Assembly: GCA_019637105.1 (NCBI GenBank)
Contig: JAHBWF010000012.1
Coordinates: 1 to 64,000 of the forward strand
DNA: 64,000 bases
Source of the DNA: Labilithrix sp.
GTDB taxonomy: Bacteria; Myxococcota_A; Polyangia; Polyangiales; Polyangiaceae
Reading direction: 5' to 3'
Position numbers and translations under genes: made by a program. Shown piece after piece: positions 29,712 through 41,457 of this stretch. The stretch's first letter is position 1. The number at the start of each line of letters is the position of its first letter. The notes under the pieces were generated by a model. That model was not told the DNA's origin. It was given only the letters and a program-made list of their open reading frames with translations, and ran no database searches.

Positions 29712-30086
29712 TCAGCGGGGATCGGGGTTCGGCCCCGGGCGCTTCGTGTACTTGCCGCGGTGCTCGGGGTGCTCGTTCTCGAACGCCTCCAGGCTCTCGC
29801 GCGTGATCTCGACCTCGACCTCGCCGTCGCGCTCGATCGTCGACTGGCAGCCGAGGCGCGAGTTGTGGCGGACGTCGAAGGCCTTGTCGAGGATGTCCTC
29901 CTCCTCCTCCTCCTGCTCGCTGAGCAGCTCGGCGCCCTTCGTCACGTAGACGTGGCAGGTCGAGCACGCGCAGACGCCGCCGCAGGCGTAGCCCTCCGGC
30001 GCGTCGATCTTCTGGGCGGCCTGGAGGATGCTCGAGCCGACGGGCACCTCGGTCTCGCCGTATCCCTTGAAGCGCACGATCGCCAT
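29712..30086 (-). CDS. fdx: Isc-associated [2Fe-2S] ferredoxin
   Basis: 124 residues; start ATG 30086 (MAIVRFKGYG). Cluster ligands follow the adrenodoxin-type spacing: Cys35, Cys41 and Cys44 in CGGVCACSTC, plus Cys80 in LGCQ. An extra cysteine (Cys39) lies inside the loop. An acidic run (EQEEEEEDILDKAFD, 57-71) matches the acidic partner-binding face of this family. The C-terminus extends to a basic-proline tail. It is the last gene of the isc operon and should supply electrons for cluster assembly on IscU. Confidence 0.93.
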   Translation of the reverse strand: MAIVRFKGYGETEVPVGSSILQAAQKIDAPEGYACGGVCACSTCHVYVTKGAELLSEQEEEEEDILDKAFDVRHNSRLGCQSTIERDGEVEVEITRESLEAFENEHPEHRGKYTKRPGPNPDPR

Positions 30087-30154: not shown

Positions 30155-32119
30155 TCAGCCCGACGGCGGCGCCGGCGGCAGAGGCCCGCTCTCCGCGTGC
30201 GCGGCCTCGATGCCCTTCGCGTGCTCGACCGACCGCTCGACCGTCTCGAGCGCCTGACCTTCGATCGCCTGGGCGATCGCGCGGTTCATCCGCCGCCCCG
30301 CGAAGCCCTTCGTCGCCGCGTCGAGGTCCTCGATCTTGAGCTCGACGCGGCGGGCGTCGGCGCCGGAGATCGCCCCCTCGAGATCGGCGATCGCCGACTC
30401 GATGCGCGCCTGCTCGCCCGGCTCGAGCAGGTCCGGATCGGCCGCGAGCGACTTCTTCGTCGAGGCGACGACGCGCGACGCCTCGACGCGAACCTCGGCG
30501 AGCTTGCGCGCGGCGAGGTCTTCTTCGCCGTGATCGATCGCGTCGAGGAGCATCTGCTCGACCGTGTCGTCGTCGAGGCCGTACGACGGCTTGACGCTCA
30601 CGGTCTGCTCGACGCCGGTGCGCTCCTCGCGGGCGTGCACCGAGAGGAGCCCGTCGGCGTCGACGCGGAACGTGACCTCGAGGCGCGCCATGCCCGCGAC
30701 CATCGGGGGGATGCCCTTGAGCGTGAAGCGCGCGAGGCTCCGGCAGTCGGCGGCGAGCTCGCGCTCGCCCTGGACGACGTGGATCTCGAACCCCGTCTGG
30801 TTGTCCTCCTGCGTGGTGTAGGCCGCGCGCGCGGCCGCCGGCGTGGTCGTGTTGCGCGGGAGGATGCGGTCGACGACGCCGCCGCCGACCTCGATCCCGA
30901 GCGAGAGCGGGATCACGTCGAGGAGGAGCACGTCGTCGGCGCTCCCCTGCCCCGCGAGCAGGTTCGCCTGGATCGCCGCGCCCAGCGCCACGACCTCCTC
31001 GGGATCGATGTCGCCGAGCGGCTCCTTGCCGAAGGTCTTCGCCACCCAGCTCCGGACCGCGGGGACGCGCGTGGCGCCGCCGACCAGGATGACGCCGTCG
31101 AGCTCTTCGGGCTTCATGCCGGCGTCCTTGAGCGCGCGCCGGCACGCGGCTCCGGTCCGCGCGAGCAGCGGCTCGACGAGCTCGTCGAAGCGCGCGCGCG
31201 CGATCGACAGCGGCGCGCCGGCCTCCGCGCCCGGTCCGCCGAACGGGCTCTCGAAGTCGACGACGTCCGCGTCGGTGAGGCCGTGCTTGACGCGGCGCGC
31301 GAGGTCGAGGACGACGCGCACCTCGGACGGCGAGGCGGAGCTCGCCTCGCGGCCCGTGAGGCGGAAGATCTCCTCGGCGAGCGCGCGGTCCATGTCGTCG
31401 CCGCCGAGCGCGCTGTCGCCGCCGGTCGCGCGCACCTGGAAGACGCCGTCGTCGAGCACGAGGATCGTGACGTCGAACGTGCCGCCCCCGAGGTCGTAGA
31501 CGGCGAACTTCCCGTTCTGCTTCTTCTCGAGGCCGTACGCGAGCGCGGCCGCGGTCGGCTCGTTCAGGAGGCGGAGGACCTCGAGCCCGGCGAGCCGACC
31601 GGCGTCCTTGGTCGCCTGCCGCTGGGCGTCGTCGAAATACGCGGGGACGGTGATGACCGCGCCGCCGACGCTGCGGAGCTCGTCCTCGGCCAGCCGCCGG
31701 AGCGAGCGGAGGATCTCGGCGCTCACCTCGACCGGCGTCACGACCTTCTCGCCGACGGCGAAGCGGACGACGTTCGGCGCGCCCTCCTCCGGCACGACGA
31801 AGGCGTAGGGGCCGAGGCGCCGCGTCTCCGGATCGTCGCCGCCGCGGCCCATGAAGCGCTTGACGCTGACGATGGTCTCGCGCGGGCGCTCGGCGGCGCG
31901 GAGCTGCGCGTTTTTGCCGACGACCACCTCCCCGGCGTCGCCGTAGTGGACCACGCTCGGTACGAGCGCGGCCTGGTCGCAGTCCTTCACCGTCGTCGGG
32001 CGCTCGTTCTTCACGTAAGCCACGAGCGAGTTCGTGGTGCCGAGGTCGATCCCGATCGGCTTCGGCGGCGCCTTCGGGTCGAAGATCTCGAGGAGGCCTG
32101 AGCTCGGGGCCTGGCTCAC
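30155..32119 (-). CDS. hscA: Hsp70-type chaperone HscA
   Basis: 654 residues from GTG 32119, which overlaps the hscB stop (GTGA). The nucleotide-binding domain starts [28 protein letters not shown], the [17 protein letters not shown] block and [10 protein letters not shown] are standard Hsp70 motifs. The substrate-binding domain has [17 protein letters not shown] and NTTTP. Length is slightly above HscA of enterobacteria (616) because of an N-terminal extension of about 20 residues. HscA with HscB acts on IscU to promote cluster transfer. The neighbours hscB and fdx identify it as HscA rather than DnaK. Confidence 0.92.
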
Positions 32120-32676
32120 GGCGACACCCCCCTCGCGCCGGCGAGGGCGCGCTCTTCGGCTTCCTCCTCGATCGCCTCGACCTCGTCGAGGAACCGTCGG
32201 TAGAAGCGGAGCTCGCCGAGGAGCGGCAGGAGCGCGGCGAGCTCGTCCCTCGAGGGCGAGCCGCCCGCGAAGCCGGCCGTCAGCCTCGACTCCACCGCCT
32301 TCGCCCGCGCGGAGACGCCGGCGCCGAGCGCCTTCACCTTCGCGAGGTCCCGCGCGGCGCGCGCGTCGGCGAGCGCCTCGCGCTCCTCCATCACCTCCAT
32401 GAGGAAGGCGGGGCTCGCCTTGGGCTCGTTGGTCTCGCCCACCGCGAGGCCCTCGGCCTGGAAGAGCGCCTCCGCGCGACGGATGGGGTCGCGGAGGACA
32501 CGCCACGCCTCGTTCACGCTCGCGGCCTTCTCGAGCGCTGCGCGCCGCTCGCTCGCGCCCGCCTGGGCGAACTTGTCGGGGTGGAGCGCGCGAGACAGCT
32601 CGCGGTGCGTCTTCTCCAGCGCCGAGAGGTCGAGATCGAAGCGGCGCGGGGCGCCGAGCATAGCGAAGGGATCCAT
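32116..32676 (-). CDS. hscB: J-domain co-chaperone HscB
   Basis: 186 residues. The N-terminal J-domain ([19 protein letters not shown]...) contains the HPD tripeptide in ALHPDKF, required to stimulate HscA ATPase. The C-terminal three-helix bundle includes [14 protein letters not shown], corresponding to the IscU-binding helix of HscB. Length fits the family (about 170-200). A short Ala/Glu-rich tail is added. The stop overlaps the hscA start. Confidence 0.9.
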
Positions 32677-32749: not shown

Positions 32750-33214
32750 TCACACCGTGAACGACGTGCCGCAGCCGCAGGAGGACTTCTCGTTCGGGTT
32801 GATGAACTTGAAGCCCTGCCGCATGAGCGTCTTCTCCCAGTCGAACGTCGCGCCGTTGAGGTAGAGGAGGCTCTTCTTGTCGACCACGATGCGGACGCCC
32901 GAGCCGTCGGTCGCCTTCAGGTCGTAGACGACGTCGCGCGCGCGCGGCTCGCCGTCGTGGAACTCGATGACGTACGAGAAGCCGGAGCAGCCGCCGCCGC
33001 GGATGCCGACTCGGAGCGCCGTGCCCGGCACGCCGCGCTTCTCGATCTGCGCTCCGACCGCGTCGACGGCGGCCTGCGTGATGACGATGCCGAGCTTCTT
33101 CGAAGCGGGCGGCTGCGAGGAGGGCGCGCCGCCCGCCGCCGCCTCGCCGCCCGGCGGCGCGCCGTGGGGCGTCGTGGTGCTCGGTGCGCGGTCCTCGTGG
33201 GTCGTCTCGTTCAT
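32750..33214 (-). CDS. iscA: A-type Fe-S carrier IscA with N-terminal extension
   Basis: 154 residues against about 107 in typical IscA. The first 40 residues are a disordered His/Pro/Gly/Ala-rich extension. The core begins LGIVITQAAVDAV and keeps the three conserved cysteines: GGGCSGFSY and the C-terminal SSCGCGTSF. A-type proteins bind Fe or Fe-S clusters and deliver them to client enzymes. It lies between iscU and hscB in the isc operon. Confidence 0.92.
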   Translation of the reverse strand: MNETTHEDRAPSTTTPHGAPPGGEAAAGGAPSSQPPASKKLGIVITQAAVDAVGAQIEKRGVPGTALRVGIRGGGCSGFSYVIEFHDGEPRARDVVYDLKATDGSGVRIVVDKKSLLYLNGATFDWEKTLMRQGFKFINPNEKSSCGCGTSFTV

Positions 33215-33257: not shown

Positions 33258-33650
33258 TCAGGCCTTCTTCGCGGCCTGCTTCGCGCGGTAGTCGGCGATC
33301 GCGCTCTTGATCGCGTCCTCGGCGAGGACCGAGCAGTGGATCTTCACCGGCGGCAGGTTGAGCTCGTTGACGATGTCGACGTTCTTGATCGCCTCGGCCT
33401 CCTCGACCTTCTTGCCCTTGATCCACTCGGTGGCGAGGGACGACGACGCGATGGCCGAGCCGCAGCCGAACGTCTTAAACTTCGCGTCCTGGATGACGCC
33501 GTCGTCGCTGACCTTGATCTGGAGGCGCATGACGTCGCCGCACGCGGGCGCCCCGACGAGGCCGGTGCCGACGCTCGGGTCTTCCTTGTCGAGGGTGCCG
33601 ACGTTGCGCGGGTTCTCCGCGTGGTCGATGACTTTTTCGCTGTAGGCCAT
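33258..33650 (-). CDS. iscU: Fe-S cluster scaffold IscU
   Basis: 130 residues, normal length. Cluster ligands Cys37 (APACGD), Cys63 (FGCGSA) and Cys106 (IHCSVLA) with His105 are present, as is the HscA-recognition motif LPPVK at 99-103. It starts MAYSEKVIDHAENPRNVG, as in canonical IscU. A basic Lys/Ala tail closes the protein. It assembles [2Fe-2S] clusters from IscS sulfur. Confidence 0.96.
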   Translation of the reverse strand: MAYSEKVIDHAENPRNVGTLDKEDPSVGTGLVGAPACGDVMRLQIKVSDDGVIQDAKFKTFGCGSAIASSSLATEWIKGKKVEEAEAIKNVDIVNELNLPPVKIHCSVLAEDAIKSAIADYRAKQAAKKA

Positions 33651-33681: not shown

Positions 33682-34905
33682 TCAGTGAGCGACCCACTGG
33701 ACGCTCTTGAGGTCGATGCCGTCCTTGTACATCTCGTACAGCGGAGACATGTTCCTGAGGTGCTTGACCTTGTCGATGACGAGGTCGGCCACGAAGTCGA
33801 TCTCCTCCTCGGTCGTGTAGCGGCCGAGGCCGAAGCGGATGCTCGAGTGCGCGAGCTCGTCGCCGACGCCGAGCGCGCGGAGGACGTAGCTCGGCTCGAG
33901 GCTCGCGGACGTGCACGCCGAGCCGGAGCTCACGGCCACGTCCTTGATCGCCATCATCATCGCCTCGCCCTCGACGAAGGCGAACGAGACGTTGAGGTTG
34001 CCCGGCAGGCGGTGCTCGAGCGAGCCGTTGACGAAGACCTCCTCCAGCGAGGTCTCGAGCTTCTTCCGGAGGCGCTCGCGCATGGCGAGCAGGCGCGCGC
34101 TCTCCTCCTTGCCCTCCTTCGACATGATGTCGGCGGCCTTGCCGAAGCCCACGATGCCGGGGACGTTGAGCGTGCCCGAGCGCATGCCGCGCTCGTGACC
34201 GCCGCCGTCCATCTGCGCGACGAGGCGCACGCGCGGCTTGCTGCGGCGGACGTAGAGGCCGCCCACGCCCTTCGGGCCGTACATCTTGTGCGCCGTGACG
34301 CTCGCGAGGTCGACGTTCATCTTCTGGACGTCGAACGGCACCTTGCCCACGCCCTGGACCGCGTCCGAGTGGAAGAGCACGCCGCGCTCGCGCGTGAGCT
34401 TGCCGATCTCTTCGAGCGGCTGGACGGTGCCGATCTCGTTGTTGGCGAGCATGATCGAGACGAGGATCGTCTTGTCCGTGATCGCCCTCTTCACGTCGTC
34501 GGGATCGACGCGGCCGTCCTTGCCGACGCCGAGGTACGTCACCTCGTAGCCCTCTTTCTCGAGGCGCTTGCACGTGTCGAGCACGGCCTTGTGCTCGATC
34601 ACGCTCGTGATGATGTGGTTGCCCTTCTCCTTGTAGAACTCGGCGACGCCCTTGATCGCGACGTTGTTGGACTCGGTCGCGCCCGAGGTGAAGACGATCT
34701 CCTTCTCGCTCTGCGCGTTGACGAGCTTGCCGATGCGCTCGCGCGCGTAGTCGACGGCCTCCTCGGCCGTCCATCCGAAGGCGTGGCTGCGGCTCGCCGC
34801 GTTGCCGAACTTCTCGTTGAAGTACGGCAGCATCTCCTCGATGACGCGCGGGTCGACCGGCGTCGTCGAGTGGTAGTCCATGAAGATAGGGAGCTTGATG
34901 GCCAT
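33682..34905 (-). CDS. iscS: Cysteine desulfurase IscS
   Basis: 407 residues. PLP-binding Lys207 lies in [10 protein letters not shown], His105 stacks on PLP in IEHKAV, and the active-site Cys331 is in [10 protein letters not shown] followed by the long mobile loop of class I desulfurases. The C-terminus [13 protein letters not shown]...VQW is the IscU-binding end of true IscS. It mobilises sulfur from cysteine for IscU and tRNA thiolation. It is the first enzyme gene after the regulator, with 27 bp between them. Confidence 0.97.
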
Positions 34906-34932: not shown

Positions 34933-35496
34933 TCAGGCGCGGAACCCCGCGACGAGGTCCGGAACTTCTCGCGCGCGATCGTGGTGGTTGCACGTCGGGC
35001 ACTCCGCGAGGAGCTTTCCGGGCTCGCAGGCGGACTCACACGTGTCGAGGTAGTCGAGGCTCGCGAGGATCTCGCGCTCGAGCGTGCGGAGGCGCTCGAT
35101 CTGCGTGCGGGCGTCGTCGAGCTTTCGCTTGTAGACCTCACGCACCTTCGCCATGGCGGACGGCGCGGACGCGGCGCGGCCCTCGGCCTCGACGTCCTTC
35201 ACGATCGCCTTGATGTCCGTGAGGCTGAAGCCGAGGTCCTGGAGCTTGCCGATCCAGCGGATGCGCACGAGCGCTTCCGGGCCGTAGAGGCGGTAGCGGC
35301 CCTTCGACCGACCGGCAGGCTTCAAGAGCTCCATCTGCTCGTAGAGATGAATGGCGCGGACGGTCTTGCCTGCCTCGCGCGCGAGATCCCCGACCTGCAT
35401 GAGCTCTTCCTCGGCGAGCACGCGCCCGCTCGCCGCCGCGGGCGGAGCGGCGGCCTCTGCGATTTCATTGAGGATGGGGAGGCGGACGTTGCTCAT
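34933..35496 (-). CDS. MerR-family regulator with C-terminal four-Cys motif, isc operon
   Basis: 187 residues. The winged-helix DNA-binding domain covers about 32-100 (MQVGDLAREAGKTVRAIHLYEQ, then GRYRLYGPEALVRIRWI). A dimerisation helix follows (KVREVYKRKLDDARTQIERL). The C-terminal effector region has Cys153, Cys157, Cys166 and Cys169 with His171/His172, in CESACEP and ECPTCNHH. Such a set could bind an Fe-S cluster or Zn. The spacing differs from SoxR (CxxCxC-x5-C). It is the first gene of the isc operon, where many bacteria have the Rrf2-type IscR. It probably senses Fe-S status or metal and controls its own operon. Confidence 0.85.
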   Translation of the reverse strand: MSNVRLPILNEIAEAAAPPAAASGRVLAEEELMQVGDLAREAGKTVRAIHLYEQMELLKPAGRSKGRYRLYGPEALVRIRWIGKLQDLGFSLTDIKAIVKDVEAEGRAASAPSAMAKVREVYKRKLDDARTQIERLRTLEREILASLDYLDTCESACEPGKLLAECPTCNHHDRAREVPDLVAGFRA

Positions 35497-35532
35497 GCGC
35501 TGGTCTTCAGCCGGGCTTTGCGGAGCCTTACT

Positions 35533-35548
35533 CTCACGTGCACGTGAG
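35533..35548. promoter_or_regulatory. Palindromic operator candidate, box 1
   Basis: CTCACGTGCACGTGAG is a perfect 16-bp palindrome located 37 bp upstream of the MerR-type regulator start. It shares the form CTNACGTNNACGTNAG with box 2 at 35604-35619. MerR-family dimers bind palindromes of this size. Confidence 0.6.
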
Positions 35549-35565
35549 GGTTGGAAGCAGAAAGA

Positions 35566-35595
35566 GTCTTAGGCGCCACCTCGGGGTGGCGTCAA
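35566..35595 (-). promoter_or_regulatory. Candidate isc promoter with dyad in an 18-bp spacer
   Basis: Read on the minus strand: TTGACG (35595-35590), an 18-nt spacer, then TAAGAC (35571-35566). The spacer is almost filled by a perfect 7-bp dyad CGCCACC / GGTGGCG (35574-35580 and 35585-35591, the second arm reaching 2 bp into the -35). Dyads in a long spacer are the classical MerR-activated promoter layout. The -10 match is poor, so this is a proposal. Confidence 0.4.
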
Positions 35596-35603
35596 GACCA
35601 ACT

Positions 35604-35619
35604 CTTACGTTAACGTTAG
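35604..35619. promoter_or_regulatory. Palindromic operator candidate, box 2
   Basis: CTTACGTTAACGTTAG matches its own reverse complement at 14 of 16 positions and has the same CTNACGTNNACGTNAG form as box 1. The centres are 71 bp apart. It lies between the candidate isc promoter and the TPR gene start at 35671, so it could affect both directions. Confidence 0.55.
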
Positions 35620-35670
35620 TCTTCGATCCAAGCAAGGCTAAATACCTGGAATCTCATCTGCAAGCCTGCC

Positions 35671-38600
35671 GTGGACGCGACGACCGCGGTAGACTTCCGC
35701 CCGGTGGGATCCGACGAAGAGTCGACGCACGAGATCGACATCGAGGCCCTGCGCGACTCGCTCGCGACGGCCCGCGCCGGAGGCCTGTCCGCGCCCGACG
35801 CGCCGCCGAGCGATCGCGAGACCGCGCGCGGTCGCCCCGATCCCGCCACGCTCGACGCCGTCGGTCTCGACGACGACCTCGACACGATGGGGCGGCCGCT
35901 CCCGACGTTCGGCGACGAGACGTTCGGCGTCGACGACGACGACGGCGATCGGACGGTGATGGCGCCGGCGCCGCCGACGAGCCGCGCGGAGGATCGACGA
36001 CCGACGCGCGCGCGCGCCGATCGCGAGTCGGTCACCCGCCTCGACGCCGCGTCGCTGCGGCCGATCGGGCTGTCGACGCCGATCGATCCGATCGCGCCGC
36101 TGCGCGCGCGCGCGCCGATCGAGTCCTCCGAAGCGATCGACACGCTGGACCCGCTCGAGCTCGAGCTCGAGCCCGAGGCGATCGAGCCGGCGCCGGCGCC
36201 GGGCGAGCGCTTCGCGCCGCCGCGCCACGCCTCGCCGCGCTTCGGGGCGGAGGACGACGACGTCGTCGATCTCGCGGACATCGAGGACGTCGAGAGCGGC
36301 GAGCACGAGGTCGTCGAGGAGCCGAGCGTCGCCGACGAGGCCGACGTCGTCGCGCTCGACTCGGACGAGGTCCCCGCGCAGGTCGAAGGGGCCGTGGATC
36401 CGACGCCGTCGCTCTTCGGGACGCTGCCGGGGCACGACGTGGCGCAGGCGCTCCGCGCGATGATGGGCGAGGCGCCGGACGCGCCGGACGCCGCGCCGCT
36501 CTCCGAGGCGACGATGTGGCGGCCGCCCGCGCGCACGCTCGACGACGGCGAGACGCAGACGCGCCTTCCGCTCTCGGACGCGCCCGAGGCCGCGCCGCGC
36601 GAAGGCCTCGACGGCGGCGACGCCTTCGGCCTCGACGGCGGCGACGCCTTCGGACGCGACGACGGCGACGCCTTCGGACGCGACGACGCGCTCCCCGCCT
36701 TCTCGCTCGAGGACGGGAGCGACGATCCGCTCGAGGAGAGCCAGGGGCCGTGGCCGCGCGCGCCGTGGAACCCCGCCGAGGTCGCGGGGCCGTCCCCTCG
36801 GCCGTTCGAACGCGACGCCGACCACACGAAGATCACGCGGCCGGCGATGCCGAGCGCGGATCGAGAGGCCACCGCGATCACGCGCGCGGTGGGTCCGAGC
36901 GCCAAGGCCGCCGCGGAGATCGGCGAGACCACCGCCGTCTTCATGGGGCCCGTTCCTTCGATCGCGCGGCCGGAGCCGGCGCCCCGCGGCGCGGTCGAGC
37001 CGACGACCGACGAGGTCGAGGCGCTCTACGGCCCCTTCGAGCGGCCGGACGAGACGGGCGCCGACGTCACCGCGCTCGGCCGCGCCGCGGACCGTGGCGA
37101 CGTCGCCCCGCGGCGTGATCGCGACGCCGCCCCGCTCCGCGAGGACGGTCCGATCGGCGCGGCCCTGCTCGACGACGCCGGCGCGCGCGGAGATCGGGCG
37201 AGCGGCGGCGACGCGCCCCCGGCGTCCGAGGACGTCCCGTCGGAGCCGGCGCTGCCGCGCTTCTCGCTCGCGTCGATCCCGGACACCGTCGCCACGCCCG
37301 AGCCCGCCCTGGCGCCCGCCGAGCTCGGCGGCGCGGGCAACGAAGACCTCACGGTGATGCGTCCGAGCCAGGTGGACACCCGGGACCTCGGGGCCTCCGC
37401 GCGCTCGTTCCACTCGATCGACGTCCGGATGTCGGCGCCGTCGATCGACGCCGAAGACGCGACCGCCGCGGGGACGACGCGGGCCGAGAGCGACGGCGAG
37501 GACATCGCGCAGCTGACGGCGCGCCTGCACCGCGACGACGTCGGGCTCGGCGACGATCCGGCCTCGGCGCTCGACGCCGAGCCTCCCCCCACGGCCGCCC
37601 GTCCGCCCGTGGGCACGGAGGAGATCGAGGCCGTCGACGCGCGCGCCGACGCCGTAGAGGAGATCGACGACGCGGAGATCCTCGAGCTCGTCCCCGACGA
37701 GATCGTCGAAGACGACCCGACGAACGCGAGCCTCGGCGCTCCGCTGAAGGCGCCGGAGTTCGAGCCGCCGGCGCCGGGCGCGCCGACCGCGCCGCCGCTC
37801 GCCGACCTCGACCCCGAGGAGCGGGAGCTCTTCGAGGAGCGGCGCTTCGGACCGCTCGTCGCGCTCTACCGCCAGCGGCTCGCCGACACCGACGGGCCGA
37901 ACCGAAAGGCGGCCATCCTCCTCAAGATCGCGCACGTGTACGAGGCGGGGCTCGAGGACTCGAACGAAGCCTTCAACGCGCTCGTCGAGGCGTTCGAGCT
38001 CGCGCCGGACAACCACGACGTCGTCTCCGCCGTCGATCGCGTCGGCAAGGCCGCAGGGCGGATCGGCGAGCTCGCGGACAAGGTCAAGCGCAAGCTCTTG
38101 CCCGGCGCGCCCGACGACAAGCGCGTCGTCTACCTCGGCCACCTCGTCTACTGGTACGAGCGCGTCCTCGGGCGGGGCAAGGAGGTCTCGTCGTTCGTCT
38201 CCGAGATCGAGCGCCACGACAAGGTCCACCCCGTCGTCCTCAAGCGCGCCGCGCAGCTCGCCGCGATGAACGCGGACCCGAAGACCCAGCGCGAGCACCT
38301 CACGCGCGCGCTCGAGCGGACGATCCGGAGCGAGGAGAAGGTCGCGCTCCACCTCGCGCTCGCGAGCTCGTACGCGGGGACGGCCGACGCGCTCAAGCAC
38401 TACGAGGCCGCGCTCCGCATCGACGGATCGTCGATCGTCGCGCTCCAGGGCGTGAAGCGGCTCGGCAAGGAGAAGGAGCGCTACGACCAGGTCAAGTGGG
38501 CGCTCGAGCGCCAGGCCGAGGTCGCGCCGACGGAGGCCGAGCGCATCGACGCGCTGCTCGAGCTCGCCGAGCTGCAGGAGACGAAGTTCCTCAAGCGCGA

Positions 38601-41457
38601 GGCCGCCGCGGAGCTCCTCGAGCGCGTCCTCGAGATCGAGCCGTCGCACCCCGCCGCGCTGAAGGGCCTCGAGCGCTGCTACCACGCGCTCCGCGACTGG
38701 CCGAAGCTCGCGCGCATCCTCGGCGTGCGGTCGGAGCACACGTTCGACAAGAAGGCGAAGGTCGAGCTCCTCGAGCTGGCCGCCGAGGTCCACGAGTCCA
38801 AGCTCGGCGATCCGGCGAGCGCCGTCGAGGTCTACCGGAACCTGCTCGTCGTCGAGCCGAAGCACCGCCGCGCGCTCGGCGATCTGGCGCGCCTCTACGA
38901 GAAGCTCGGCGACTGGGCGAACGTCGCGACCTACAAGGCGCGCCTGGCGGAGCTCGCCCCGACGAAGCGAGCCTCGTCGCAGGAGCTCGTGAAGCTCGGC
39001 GACTTCTTGAACGTTCCGGAGCGCGATCCGCTCGCCGCCAAGCTCCAGTACGAGCGCGCGGTGACGGTCGATCCGACGAACGCCGCGGGGTGGGAGGCCC
39101 TCCAGCGGCTCGCGGCCGAGGCGGGGGACGATCGCCGCGTCGTGGAGTGCCTCGAGCAGCGCAGGAAGCACACCGACGTCCCGCGCCAGCGCGCGGCGAT
39201 CCTCGTGGAGCTCGCGAAGGTGCATCGCGCGCAGGGCGACGACGACGCCGCGGACAAGGCCTTCGAGGCGGCCGTCCACGCCGACCCGTCGAACGAGGTG
39301 GCGGCGGCCGCGGTGCTCGACACGTACACGGCCGAGGAGCGCTGGGCCGAGGCCGCGCCGCTCTGCGAGCTGCTCGTCAACGCCGCCGTCCGCGATCGCG
39401 ACGCCGAGGCGCTGTTCGTTCGCCTGCGCCTGGCGACGCGCATCGCCGCGGCCCTCGGCGACGCCGATCGCGCGCTGACGTCCGCGGTCGCCGCGCTCGA
39501 CGCGCGGCCGGACGACCCGGGGGCGCGGGCCGACCTCATCGCGGTCGCAAGCCAGTGCCGGGAGTCGGGGCCGTCGATCGCGCGGGTCCGAGAGCGGCTC
39601 GCGCGGCTCGCCGAGCAGCCGGACGACCTGACGACCGACCAGCTCGTCCGCCTCGCCAAGCTCCAGGAGGACGCCGGCGACCTCGACGGCGCCGCCGCGC
39701 TCCAGGAGCGGGCGCGCCGCCTCGAGCCCGACGATCCGGAGCTGACGCAGGCGCTCGCCGAGGTCTACCTGGCCCAGGGCGACTTCCCGCGCGCGTGCAA
39801 GCTCAAGGTCGACATGGCGCGGAACGCGACGGACGCGGAGACGCGGTTCGATCTGTTCTGCGAGGCCGGCGAGATCTGGGCGCGCCGCGCGGACGAGCTG
39901 GAGAAGGCCGCGAGCATCTTCGAAGAGGCGCGCGCGCTCAAGCCGCTCGATCCCTGGCTGCTCCAGACGATGATGTGGCTCTACGGGGAGCTGGGCGAGT
40001 GGGGCCTCCTCACCGGCGTGCTCGAGGACGCCGCGCAGGCGTCCGACGGCTCGCCCGAGGATCGGGTCAAGAACCTCGTCGCGATGGCCGAGGTCGTCCG
40101 CGACAAGCTCGACGACCGCCTGCGCGCGGCGGACCTCTACGACCAGGTGCTCGACGTCGACAGACGGCGCCTCGACGTCTTCGAGGAGCTCGTCCGCGCG
40201 CTGACCGAGGAGAAGGACTGGGAGCGGCTCGAGCAGGCCTACTGCAGGATGCTCGCCCGGGTGAAGGACGACGACGAGCCGCAGCTCCAGTTCCTCCTCC
40301 TCCATCAGCTCGGGCTCATCTACCGCGACCGCCTCGGCGACGCCTCCCGCGCCTACGACGCCCTCGACGCCGCCTCGCGCCTGCGTCCCGACGACGGAGA
40401 GGTCCGCAAGATCGTCGTCGAGCTGCTCGTCGTCACCGACAACCTCGACAACGCCGTCGCGCGCCTGCGCGACGAGATCGACCGCGATCCCCACGACCCG
40501 CAGCTCTACGCGGAGCTCTACGAGCTCTTCCTTCGCCAGCATTTCTTCGACAAGGCCTGGTGCGCCGTCAACGTGCTGTCGCGCATGCGCGAGCCCACGC
40601 CCGAGCAGCGGCGCTTCCACGAGGACTACGCCCCGATGCCGCTCGACGGCGTGCCGGGTCAGATCGTCGAGCAAGCCTGGCGCTCCCACGTCTTCCACGC
40701 CGCGCTCGATCCGGCGCTCACGAACGTCTTCGCGCTCTTGACCCCCGCCGTGGCGCGCATGCGGTACGGCCAGCTCCGCCCCGAGCAGCGCGTCGGCCGC
40801 CCGTTCACGCCGAACCACTCGCGGATGCACGACGTCGTCCGGGCGACGTTCGACAACGCCGCCGAGATCCTCGCCGTCGAGGCGCCGGAGCTGCTGCTCG
40901 GCGATCCCAAGTCGCCGGCGCCGTTCACGCCCGCGCTCGCGCCGTACGGCGCGCTGCTCGTCTCGGGGCCCGCCGTGGAGGCGCAGTCGAGCTCGCTCAT
41001 CTACCTGGTCGGCAAGCGCCTCGCCGAGCAGCGCCCGGAGCTCGCCGCGCGGGCGTTCTTCACCTCGGTCGCGGAGATGACGTCGCTCCTCAACATGGCC
41101 GTGCGCGTGAGCCGCAACGAGGTCGCCAAGGACGCGGCCGGAGCCGCCCTCGACCAGACCTTCGCCGCGGTCCTCGCGCCGCAGGAGGCCGCCGCGCTCC
41201 GCAGCGTCGTCCTCCAGGCGACGTCGGAGAGCCCGTCGCTCGACGTGAAGCGCTGGTCGCAGGCGGCCGAGCTCTCGAGCATGCGCGCGGGGCTCCTCAT
41301 CGCCGGGGACGTCGAGCCCGCGCGCGACGCGCTCCTCGCGGAGGGACCGTCGGGCGACCTCTCGGCCGAGGACAAGGTCGGCGAGCTCTACAAGTTCGCG
41401 ACGAGCGACCTGTACTCGGACCTCCGCGGCGCGATCGGCGTCGCGGTCCAGGCCTGA
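35671..41457 (+). CDS. Giant TPR protein with acidic low-complexity N-terminus
   Basis: 1928 residues from GTG 35671. Residues 1 to about 700 are low-complexity and acidic (many Asp, Glu, Ala, Pro), with short tandem repeats and no catalytic motif. From about 705 (LDPEERELFEERRFGPLVAL) to about 1640 there is an array of TPR-like helical pairs, for example LLELAELQETKFLKREAAAELLERVL and KVDMARNATDAETRFDLFCEAG. The last 280 residues are a separate domain with AEMTSLLNMAVRV and RAGLLIAGD. No signal peptide or membrane helix is seen. It is probably a cytoplasmic scaffold. It is divergent from the isc operon. A paralog of its C-terminal domain lies at the right window edge. Confidence 0.8.
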   Translation: MDATTAVDFRPVGSDEESTHEIDIEALRDSLATARAGGLSAPDAPPSDRETARGRPDPATLDAVGLDDDLDTMGRPLPTFGDETFGVDDDDGDRTVMAPAPPTSRAEDRRPTRARADRESVTRLDAASLRPIGLSTPIDPIAPLRARAPIESSEAIDTLDPLELELEPEAIEPAPAPGERFAPPRHASPRFGAEDDDVVDLADIEDVESGEHEVVEEPSVADEADVVALDSDEVPAQVEGAVDPTPSLFGTLPGHDVAQALRAMMGEAPDAPDAAPLSEATMWRPPARTLDDGETQTRLPLSDAPEAAPREGLDGGDAFGLDGGDAFGRDDGDAFGRDDALPAFSLEDGSDDPLEESQGPWPRAPWNPAEVAGPSPRPFERDADHTKITRPAMPSADREATAITRAVGPSAKAAAEIGETTAVFMGPVPSIARPEPAPRGAVEPTTDEVEALYGPFERPDETGADVTALGRAADRGDVAPRRDRDAAPLREDGPIGAALLDDAGARGDRASGGDAPPASEDVPSEPALPRFSLASIPDTVATPEPALAPAELGGAGNEDLTVMRPSQVDTRDLGASARSFHSIDVRMSAPSIDAEDATAAGTTRAESDGEDIAQLTARLHRDDVGLGDDPASALDAEPPPTAARPPVGTEEIEAVDARADAVEEIDDAEILELVPDEIVEDDPTNASLGAPLKAPEFEPPAPGAPTAPPLADLDPEERELFEERRFGPLVALYRQRLADTDGPNRKAAILLKIAHVYEAGLEDSNEAFNALVEAFELAPDNHDVVSAVDRVGKAAGRIGELADKVKRKLLPGAPDDKRVVYLGHLVYWYERVLGRGKEVSSFVSEIERHDKVHPVVLKRAAQLAAMNADPKTQREHLTRALERTIRSEEKVALHLALASSYAGTADALKHYEAALRIDGSSIVALQGVKRLGKEKERYDQVKWALERQAEVAPTEAERIDALLELAELQETKFLKREAAAELLERVLEIEPSHPAALKGLERCYHALRDWPKLARILGVRSEHTFDKKAKVELLELAAEVHESKLGDPASAVEVYRNLLVVEPKHRRALGDLARLYEKLGDWANVATYKARLAELAPTKRASSQELVKLGDFLNVPERDPLAAKLQYERAVTVDPTNAAGWEALQRLAAEAGDDRRVVECLEQRRKHTDVPRQRAAILVELAKVHRAQGDDDAADKAFEAAVHADPSNEVAAAAVLDTYTAEERWAEAAPLCELLVNAAVRDRDAEALFVRLRLATRIAAALGDADRALTSAVAALDARPDDPGARADLIAVASQCRESGPSIARVRERLARLAEQPDDLTTDQLVRLAKLQEDAGDLDGAAALQERARRLEPDDPELTQALAEVYLAQGDFPRACKLKVDMARNATDAETRFDLFCEAGEIWARRADELEKAASIFEEARALKPLDPWLLQTMMWLYGELGEWGLLTGVLEDAAQASDGSPEDRVKNLVAMAEVVRDKLDDRLRAADLYDQVLDVDRRRLDVFEELVRALTEEKDWERLEQAYCRMLARVKDDDEPQLQFLLLHQLGLIYRDRLGDASRAYDALDAASRLRPDDGEVRKIVVELLVVTDNLDNAVARLRDEIDRDPHDPQLYAELYELFLRQHFFDKAWCAVNVLSRMREPTPEQRRFHEDYAPMPLDGVPGQIVEQAWRSHVFHAALDPALTNVFALLTPAVARMRYGQLRPEQRVGRPFTPNHSRMHDVVRATFDNAAEILAVEAPELLLGDPKSPAPFTPALAPYGALLVSGPAVEAQSSSLIYLVGKRLAEQRPELAARAFFTSVAEMTSLLNMAVRVSRNEVAKDAAGAALDQTFAAVLAPQEAAALRSVVLQATSESPSLDVKRWSQAAELSSMRAGLLIAGDVEPARDALLAEGPSGDLSAEDKVGELYKFATSDLYSDLRGAIGVAVQA
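36604..36687 (+). repeat. 24-bp tandem repeat inside the TPR gene
   Basis: Three full 24-bp units (36604-36627, 36628-36651, 36652-36675) and a half unit encode GLDGGDAF, GLDGGDAF, GRDDGDAF and GRDD. The first two are identical at the DNA level, which suggests recent slippage in the disordered region. Confidence 0.8.

Follow-up and report, generated by a model that had tools for sequence, protein, structure and literature searches.

Most of what is known about the regulation of Fe-S biogenesis comes from two proteins of the Rrf2 family, IscR and RisR. In Escherichia coli, the gene of IscR is the first of the isc operon, and the protein is an autoregulator with a regulon of many operons. Holo-IscR represses isc and carries a [2Fe-2S] cluster held by three cysteines, as described in the sections of PMC9973013 drawn on here. 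The same sections present RisR of Myxococcus xanthus, a member of group IS6 of the Rrf2 family that also has three cysteines. The holo form of RisR represses by way of a palindrome at the isc promoter, with a GAC-N7-GTC core. As presented there, the RisR gene lies in the suf operon, and the isc operon of M. xanthus is without a regulator gene. A second point of comparison is the MerR family. In the excerpts of PMC9909328 used here, SoxR is a [2Fe-2S] protein with its operator in the promoter spacer and soxS as target, and MerR has the loop cysteines C117 and C126.

In the window, the whole stretch of 64,000 nucleotides of Labilithrix sp. that was analyzed, the isc operon is headed by a gene for a MerR-type protein with four conserved cysteines. 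As in the IscR system, the gene stands at the head of the isc operon, where it probably regulates itself and where the holo form would repress; a conserved predicted operator precedes it. The two proteins belong to unrelated families, and one dominant site was found here as against the many operons of IscR. With RisR, the locus has in common a palindrome at the isc promoter and, in all probability, the control of Fe-S biogenesis in a myxobacterium; repression by the holo form is probably shared as well. It differs in the fold (MerR instead of Rrf2), in the number of cysteines (four instead of three), in the location of the gene within the isc operon, and in the palindrome, which is of the type ACCCTNACG-N4. 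Unlike that of SoxR, the predicted operator comes after the predicted start, and the target is isc. The fold and an inner C-x8-C motif are shared with MerR, CueR and ZntR, from which the protein is set apart by two more conserved cysteines, the Fe-S assembly genes behind it and a repressor-like operator placement.

The comparison points, with a probability of about two-thirds, to a MerR-type repressor that is dedicated to the isc operon, regulates its own gene and senses Fe-S status. This reading is built by sequence comparison, from the operon position, the conserved operator, the one dominant site, the geometry relative to consensus promoters and the coupling to Fe-S assembly. A myxobacterial group appears to control its Fe-S assembly genes by a four-cysteine MerR-type protein with a long palindromic operator of its own, and not by the Rrf2-type protein of other groups. 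MerR proteins are well known, and so are feedback regulators of Fe-S assembly; their union, with a displaced operator, appears to be new. Among the open-access journal papers listed, none describes an isc regulator of the MerR type, and the word 'MerR' is absent from the main text of PMC9973013. If the reading is true, the protein would be the first MerR-type counterpart of IscR as far as that literature shows, and a likely function would be gained for a gene left unassigned by the NCBIfam models applied.

The isc operon and its first gene

The genes of the operon lie on the minus strand in the order reg-iscS-iscU-iscA-hscB-hscA-fdx. The regulator gene (34933..35496) encodes 187 residues, including Cys153, 157, 166 and 169 and a C-terminal P-x-L-V-A-G. 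It is followed by iscS for the cysteine desulfurase (33682..34905; NCBIfam TIGR02006, 663.7 bits), iscU for the scaffold (33258..33650; TIGR01999, 225.2 bits), a gene for an IscA-type carrier (32750..33214), hscB for the co-chaperone (32116..32676; TIGR00714, 70.4 bits) and hscA for the chaperone (30155..32068; TIGR01991, 792 bits; the start is not fixed and may be slightly upstream). These bit scores are all over the cut-offs. The carrier matches PF01521 and, over the cut-off, TIGR00049 (97.6 bits); its score with the IscA model (98.7 bits) is below the cut-off of 150.6. The last gene, an ORF at 29712..30086, was named fdx (ferredoxin-like) by eye. The M. xanthus operon ends with a tRNA-Leu; no tRNA was found anywhere in the window. 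SufB had no match at E ≤ 1e-60 in the Labilithrix sp. genome (91.5% complete).

The Pfam families MerR_1 (2.2e-14), MerR and MerR-DNA-bind (7.4e-8) match the regulator over their cut-offs and correspond to the N-terminal winged helix-turn-helix of the MerR family. Together with the family matches of the genes behind, they confirm the first-pass annotation of a four-cysteine MerR-type regulator as first gene of a complete isc operon. In the AF2 model, residues 111–156 form the long dimerization helix of the family, and the confidence across the cysteine loop is only 60–78. The best matches in a fold search are MerR members; SoxR ranks first but is tied with several others, so that its rank was given no weight. 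The Rrf2 domain (PF02082) is absent from the Pfam families matched by the regulator. The one Rrf2 match among the candidates scored in the genome, 20 at most (on contig C187), adjoins cysteine-synthase-like genes, as judged by eye, and RisR-like control of isc was rejected as a candidate for Labilithrix sp. In this respect, the proposed dissimilarity to the Rrf2-type IscR loop is supported.

Coupling to Fe-S assembly genes

Within the class, 133 of 192 genomes have a match to the regulator at E ≤ 1e-15, as do 58 of 188 genomes of an overlapping phylum-wide draw. Removal of duplicates left 130 distinct loci with scores of at least 90 bits, including odd cases that were fetched on purpose. As the loci are related, the counts are not independent; the choice of loci was made on the regulator, without regard to isc. 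At 124 of the 130 loci, the gene that follows belongs to Fe-S assembly, namely iscS at 122 and iscA-sufB at two; three loci are at a contig edge (L062, L063, L095) and three are copies elsewhere (L051, L052, L055). At 27 of the 122 iscS-adjacent loci, a weak SufS cross-hit was first obtained at the same place. Of the 236 relatives, 80 were covered by title; they bear the names of myxobacterial groups or are called no more than Deltaproteobacteria bacterium or Proteobacteria bacterium, and Labilithrix sp. ACE_MYX7 is the closest of these 80, with 99% across the conserved part.

Among the 192 genomes, the regulator (E ≤ 1e-20) is present in 130, HscA over the cut-off in 118–119, and both in 114. 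The four genomes with HscA only are accounted for by contigs that break before the regulator (G029, G066, G162) and by a broken copy, in two pieces in different frames (G054), so that no confirmed ISC system without the regulator gene was seen among the 192. Sixteen genomes have the regulator only, and the surroundings of the regulator were fetched for 12 of them. Eight have adjoining ISC genes, two have suf genes (G045, G137), one is at a contig end (G131) and one has iscS-iscA (G117). The other four have ISC genes (G145, locus L064), iscS (G099, locus L028) or a partial HscA on the same contig (G042, G167). When at most 20 candidates of each genome were scored for Rrf2, 17 of the 20 genomes listed, out of 41 with no match at E ≤ 1e-8, were found to have the regulator. 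The lack of a confirmed ISC system without the MerR-type gene, combined with several genomes without an Rrf2 match, suggests that negative feedback on Fe-S assembly arose more than once, from unrelated folds.

The cysteine tetrad

Cys153, 157, 166 and 169 occupy invariant columns in an alignment of 53 sequences (alignment A2, from which four of 57 proteins, L109, L139, L169 and L173, were left out; 22 of 46 loci were left out of alignment A1). The pattern C-x2/3-C-x7-10-C-x2-C is found in every one of the 127 proteins whose C-terminus is complete, most commonly with spacings x2-x8 (81 proteins) and x3-x8 (35), and the SoxR motif does not occur in the family. The cysteine spacing was rightly noted at first pass as unlike that of SoxR: it is C-x2/3-C-x8-C-x2-C, against C-x2-C-x-C-x5-C for Cys119/122/124/130 of SoxR in the part of PMC9909328 drawn on. 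In the Labilithrix sp. genome, a separate protein has its cysteines spaced exactly as in SoxR (L003, contig C101), and another shows the C..C-x8-C arrangement of the mercury-responsive MerR (L002), which makes the isc regulator a third type in the same genome.

In an alignment to Bacillus MerR (4ua1), C157-x8-C166 falls at the metal-loop pair, and C153 and C169 are extra. An Fe-S cluster is favored over another ligand for the tetrad. An unlikely alternative is a sensor for thiophilic metals (Zn, Cu, Cd, Hg), in which a cluster-attacking metal would bind, the repressor would release the DNA, and ISC would be raised for repair. It would fit the position of the inner C-x8-C at the MerR metal loop, a histidine within five residues past the last cysteine in 120 of the 127 tetrad proteins, and the order of the family scores, headed by CueR and ZntR. 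However, the regulator stays below the cut-off of each of the 15 listed NCBIfam models, and every metal-regulator model is far below (CueR 59.2 bits for a cut-off of 147.4, ZntR 54 for 167.95, MerR 52.8 for 150.85, CadR-PbrR 47.5 for 151.45); the SoxR equivalog gives 44.2 bits for 116.9. Much the same broad range of models is matched by 53 relatives, in a table that shows no cut-offs for them. The neighborhood also speaks against metal sensing, as the neighbor examined, the adjoining downstream gene, belongs to Fe-S assembly at 124 of 130 loci, and across the class the regulator gene accompanies ISC.

A sister MerR subfamily (L065, L066, L067), with 31–33% identity, has the same kind of cysteine tetrad. 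Its neighbors differ and include, as judged by eye, a large AAA-type ATPase and an SMC-like protein. Since the tetrad is shared beside other genes, it may serve to bind zinc or metals in general, which speaks against its being special to Fe-S sensing. A tetrad that holds structural zinc would place the signal elsewhere, for example in the docking of an ISC component at the P-x-L-V-A-G tail. CxxC pairs are typical zinc ligands, and the tail follows the tetrad as P-x-[LM]-V-[AS]-[GA] in 91 of 127 sequences by the strict pattern. To our knowledge, no docking partner for this tail has been described. The loop in question is the sensing site in metal-sensing MerR members and the cluster site in SoxR, as far as PMC9909328 was drawn on, and structural zinc is on balance improbable.

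A conserved operator

Two matching palindromes were indicated by the first-pass annotation, and both are present, CTCACGTGCACGTGAG at 35533–35548 and CTTACGTTAACGTTAG at 35604–35619, but they form only the inner part of an operator of 22–24 bp (35530–35551 and 35601–35622). With at most one mismatch, CTNACGTNNACGTNAG has just two sites in the 64 kb, where 0.11 are expected and three of 100 shuffles gave two or more. The element conserved across orthologs is A-C-C/T-C-T-N-A-C-G/C-N4-C-G-T-N-A-G-G/A-G-T. The palindromes of the window are two copies of the full operator, AACYCTNACG-N4-CGTNAGRGTT. The predicted proximal operator, ACCCTCACG-TGCA-CGTGAGAGT (35530..35551, minus strand), agrees with the core at 15 of 16 positions and is centered about 19 bp after the predicted start. 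The predicted distal operator, AGACTAACG-TTAA-CGTAAGAGT (35601..35622, minus strand), agrees at 13 of 16 and is just upstream of the −35 element. The two are 71 bp apart, center to center, with the promoter in between.

The core was scored over 16 fixed positions in the upstream regions of the 130 orthologous loci. A score of at least 13 is reached in 115 of them, compared with seven of 2600 shuffles, and a score of at least 12 in 123, compared with 55 of 2600. Conservation upstream of orthologous isc operons had been set beforehand as one of the refuting tests, and the palindromes withstood it. Scores of 11 or less occur at seven loci (9–10 for L008, L069, L096, L098, L139 and L162; 11 for L131). 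The upstream region of L139 ends at 78 bases and L098, at a contig end, was mis-anchored and entered as a miss, which leaves L008, L069, L096, L131 and L162 as true misses. A second site of at least 12/16 is found at 39 loci, 22 of which, the window included, have the two sites 56–80 bp apart.

The 192 genomes of the class contain 65 sites with at most one mismatch, in 64 genomes. By their coordinates, 58 of the 65 are at the regulator gene and seven are elsewhere (G010, G128, G026, G150, G153, G172, G013); a reversed-pattern control gave 14. The 128 genomes without a site at this stringency, which misses weaker sites, include many with the regulator. In the Labilithrix sp. genome, the 16-position pattern with at most one mismatch has one site, at 35530–35551. 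That the regulator governs the isc operon through the predicted operator is highly probable. The shorter pattern CCTNACG-N4-CGTNAGG, again with at most one mismatch, gave 18 sites in this genome and six for the reversed control. A wider regulon is not claimed at this stringency: the one exact site (contig C132) is without the outer bases, and the 16-position pattern returns the isc site alone.

Promoter geometry and mode of action

The predicted promoter TTGACG-N18-TAAGAC lies between the operators (35566..35595, minus strand), with TTGACG at 35590–35595 and TAAGAC at 35566–35571. The promoter-like element and the dyad reported within its 18-bp spacer are both there, but the dyad is not conserved: dyads with arms of at least 5 bp are no commoner at orthologs (5 of 76 spacers) than in base-shuffled spacers (95 of 1520). 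Among the closest relatives, the dyad of the window is absent in L108 and L110 and imperfect in L109. It was rejected as an operator.

Promoters were counted in 120 of the 130 upstream regions, leaving out L051, L052, L055 and the seven loci below 12/16. The search for the −35 element began 64 bp before the operator start and ended 4 bp after it, a range that partly bounds the geometry; the histogram of TTGAC positions spans a wider one. By consensus, a TTGAC-like −35 and a −10 element were called in 107 of the 120. The spacer is of 17 bp in 93, 18 bp in 10, 16 bp in three and 19 bp in one. The operator center is at +1 to +29 of the predicted start in 100 of the 107 and before the start in seven. 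TTGAC is found 45–59 bp before the operator center 86 times, at 38 bp before it 10 times, and 11–22 bp after it 40 times, as expected for an upstream operator.

MerR-regulated promoters typically have spacers of 19–20 bp with the operator inside, according to the sections of PMC9909328 drawn on. This classic spacer geometry was not recovered with the consensus promoters and is not supported. A classic MerR activator, whose loaded sensor would untwist a long-spacer promoter, is the usual mode of the family in the same sections, and TTCCAA-N20-TAAGGC can be written around the proximal palindrome of the window, but with TTGAC only seven times in 120 upstream regions at 14–18 bp before the operator center, roughly the classic place, against 86 times at 45–59 bp, and 17-bp spacers in 93 of 107 called promoters, such an activator is highly improbable. 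The position of the operator, mostly over or just after the predicted start of promoters with 17- or 18-bp spacers and not within a 19–20-bp spacer, makes simple repression by the regulator the likely mode.

For an autoregulating repressor that senses Fe-S status, we infer DNA binding, repression, cluster occupancy and the sign of the response as follows. A dimer of the regulator would sit on the palindrome AACYCTNACG-N4-CGTNAGRGTT, over or just after the start of a near-consensus promoter, and would stop RNA polymerase from starting or leaving. A second operator copy is 56–80 bp away in the window and at 21 other loci; in the window it is beyond the promoter. The C-terminal tetrad would be the sensor, with the inner C157-x8-C166 in the MerR metal-loop position and C153 and C169 bringing the ligands to four; what they hold would most likely be an Fe-S cluster supplied by ISC. 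With clusters in ample supply, the holo-protein would repress. When iron or clusters are short, the apo-protein would release the operator and expression of the operon would rise. Negative feedback makes sense with the one strong site at the Fe-S assembly operon, which includes the regulator gene itself; RisR works in this way in M. xanthus, with an unrelated fold.

Exchange of ISC for SUF

In two genomes, the regulator gene precedes suf genes, in the order reg-iscA-sufB-sufC-sufD-sufS-sufU in G045 and reg-iscA-sufB-sufC-sufD, to the end of the contig, in G137. IscU has no match at E ≤ 1e-10 in G045, G137, G131 and G117, of which G137 and G131 have a completeness of just 82% and 86%. The operator before suf scores 14/16 in G137 and 12/16 in G045, the latter a weak score that is reached by about 2% of shuffles. 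In a tree of the regulators (L063, L098 and proteins shorter than 120 residues left out), those of G045, G137 and G131 cluster as a clade of their own (0.999), nested in a larger group (0.997) with isc-linked regulators among its members. In G045 and G137, the regulator gene followed function and not operon type. Unlike these two, G022, which has no HscA over the cut-off, has an Rrf2 gene in front of sufBCDSU. G117 (L096, L097) has regulator-iscS-iscA without an IscU match and a separate Rrf2 gene before sufBCDSU; the presence of both kinds of regulator in one genome was counted against a dedicated repressor.

A separate Fe-S-sensing lineage derived from MerR metal sensors in the Myxococcota is slightly favored as the origin of the family. 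The C-x8-C would have been widened to a four-cysteine cluster site, the operator would have left the spacer so that the protein became a plain repressor, and the module would have been kept after the change from ISC to SUF. Its defined operator, its candidate cluster motif and the natural change from ISC to SUF make the family testable at once.

Extra copies and the divergent gene

A second copy of the regulator gene is found outside isc in one family (L051, L052, L055, L057 and L059, in genomes G221, G237, G245, G253 and G322). L051 and L059 adjoin a deoxynucleoside-kinase-like gene and L052 and L057 a sigma-factor-like gene, as judged by eye; L055 is near a contig start. The copies L051, L052 and L055 have an operator of their own, with 13–15 of 16 positions. 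In G221 and G245, the isc-like loci (L050, L054) have the order reg-iscS-iscA-hscB, with no IscU match beside iscS.

In the window, the distal operator is about 50 bp before a divergent ORF of 1928 residues (35671–41457, plus strand). A stretch closely similar to GGCTAAATACCTGGAATCTCATC, between the operator and this ORF, is kept in three Labilithrix-type relatives and may be the promoter of the divergent ORF.
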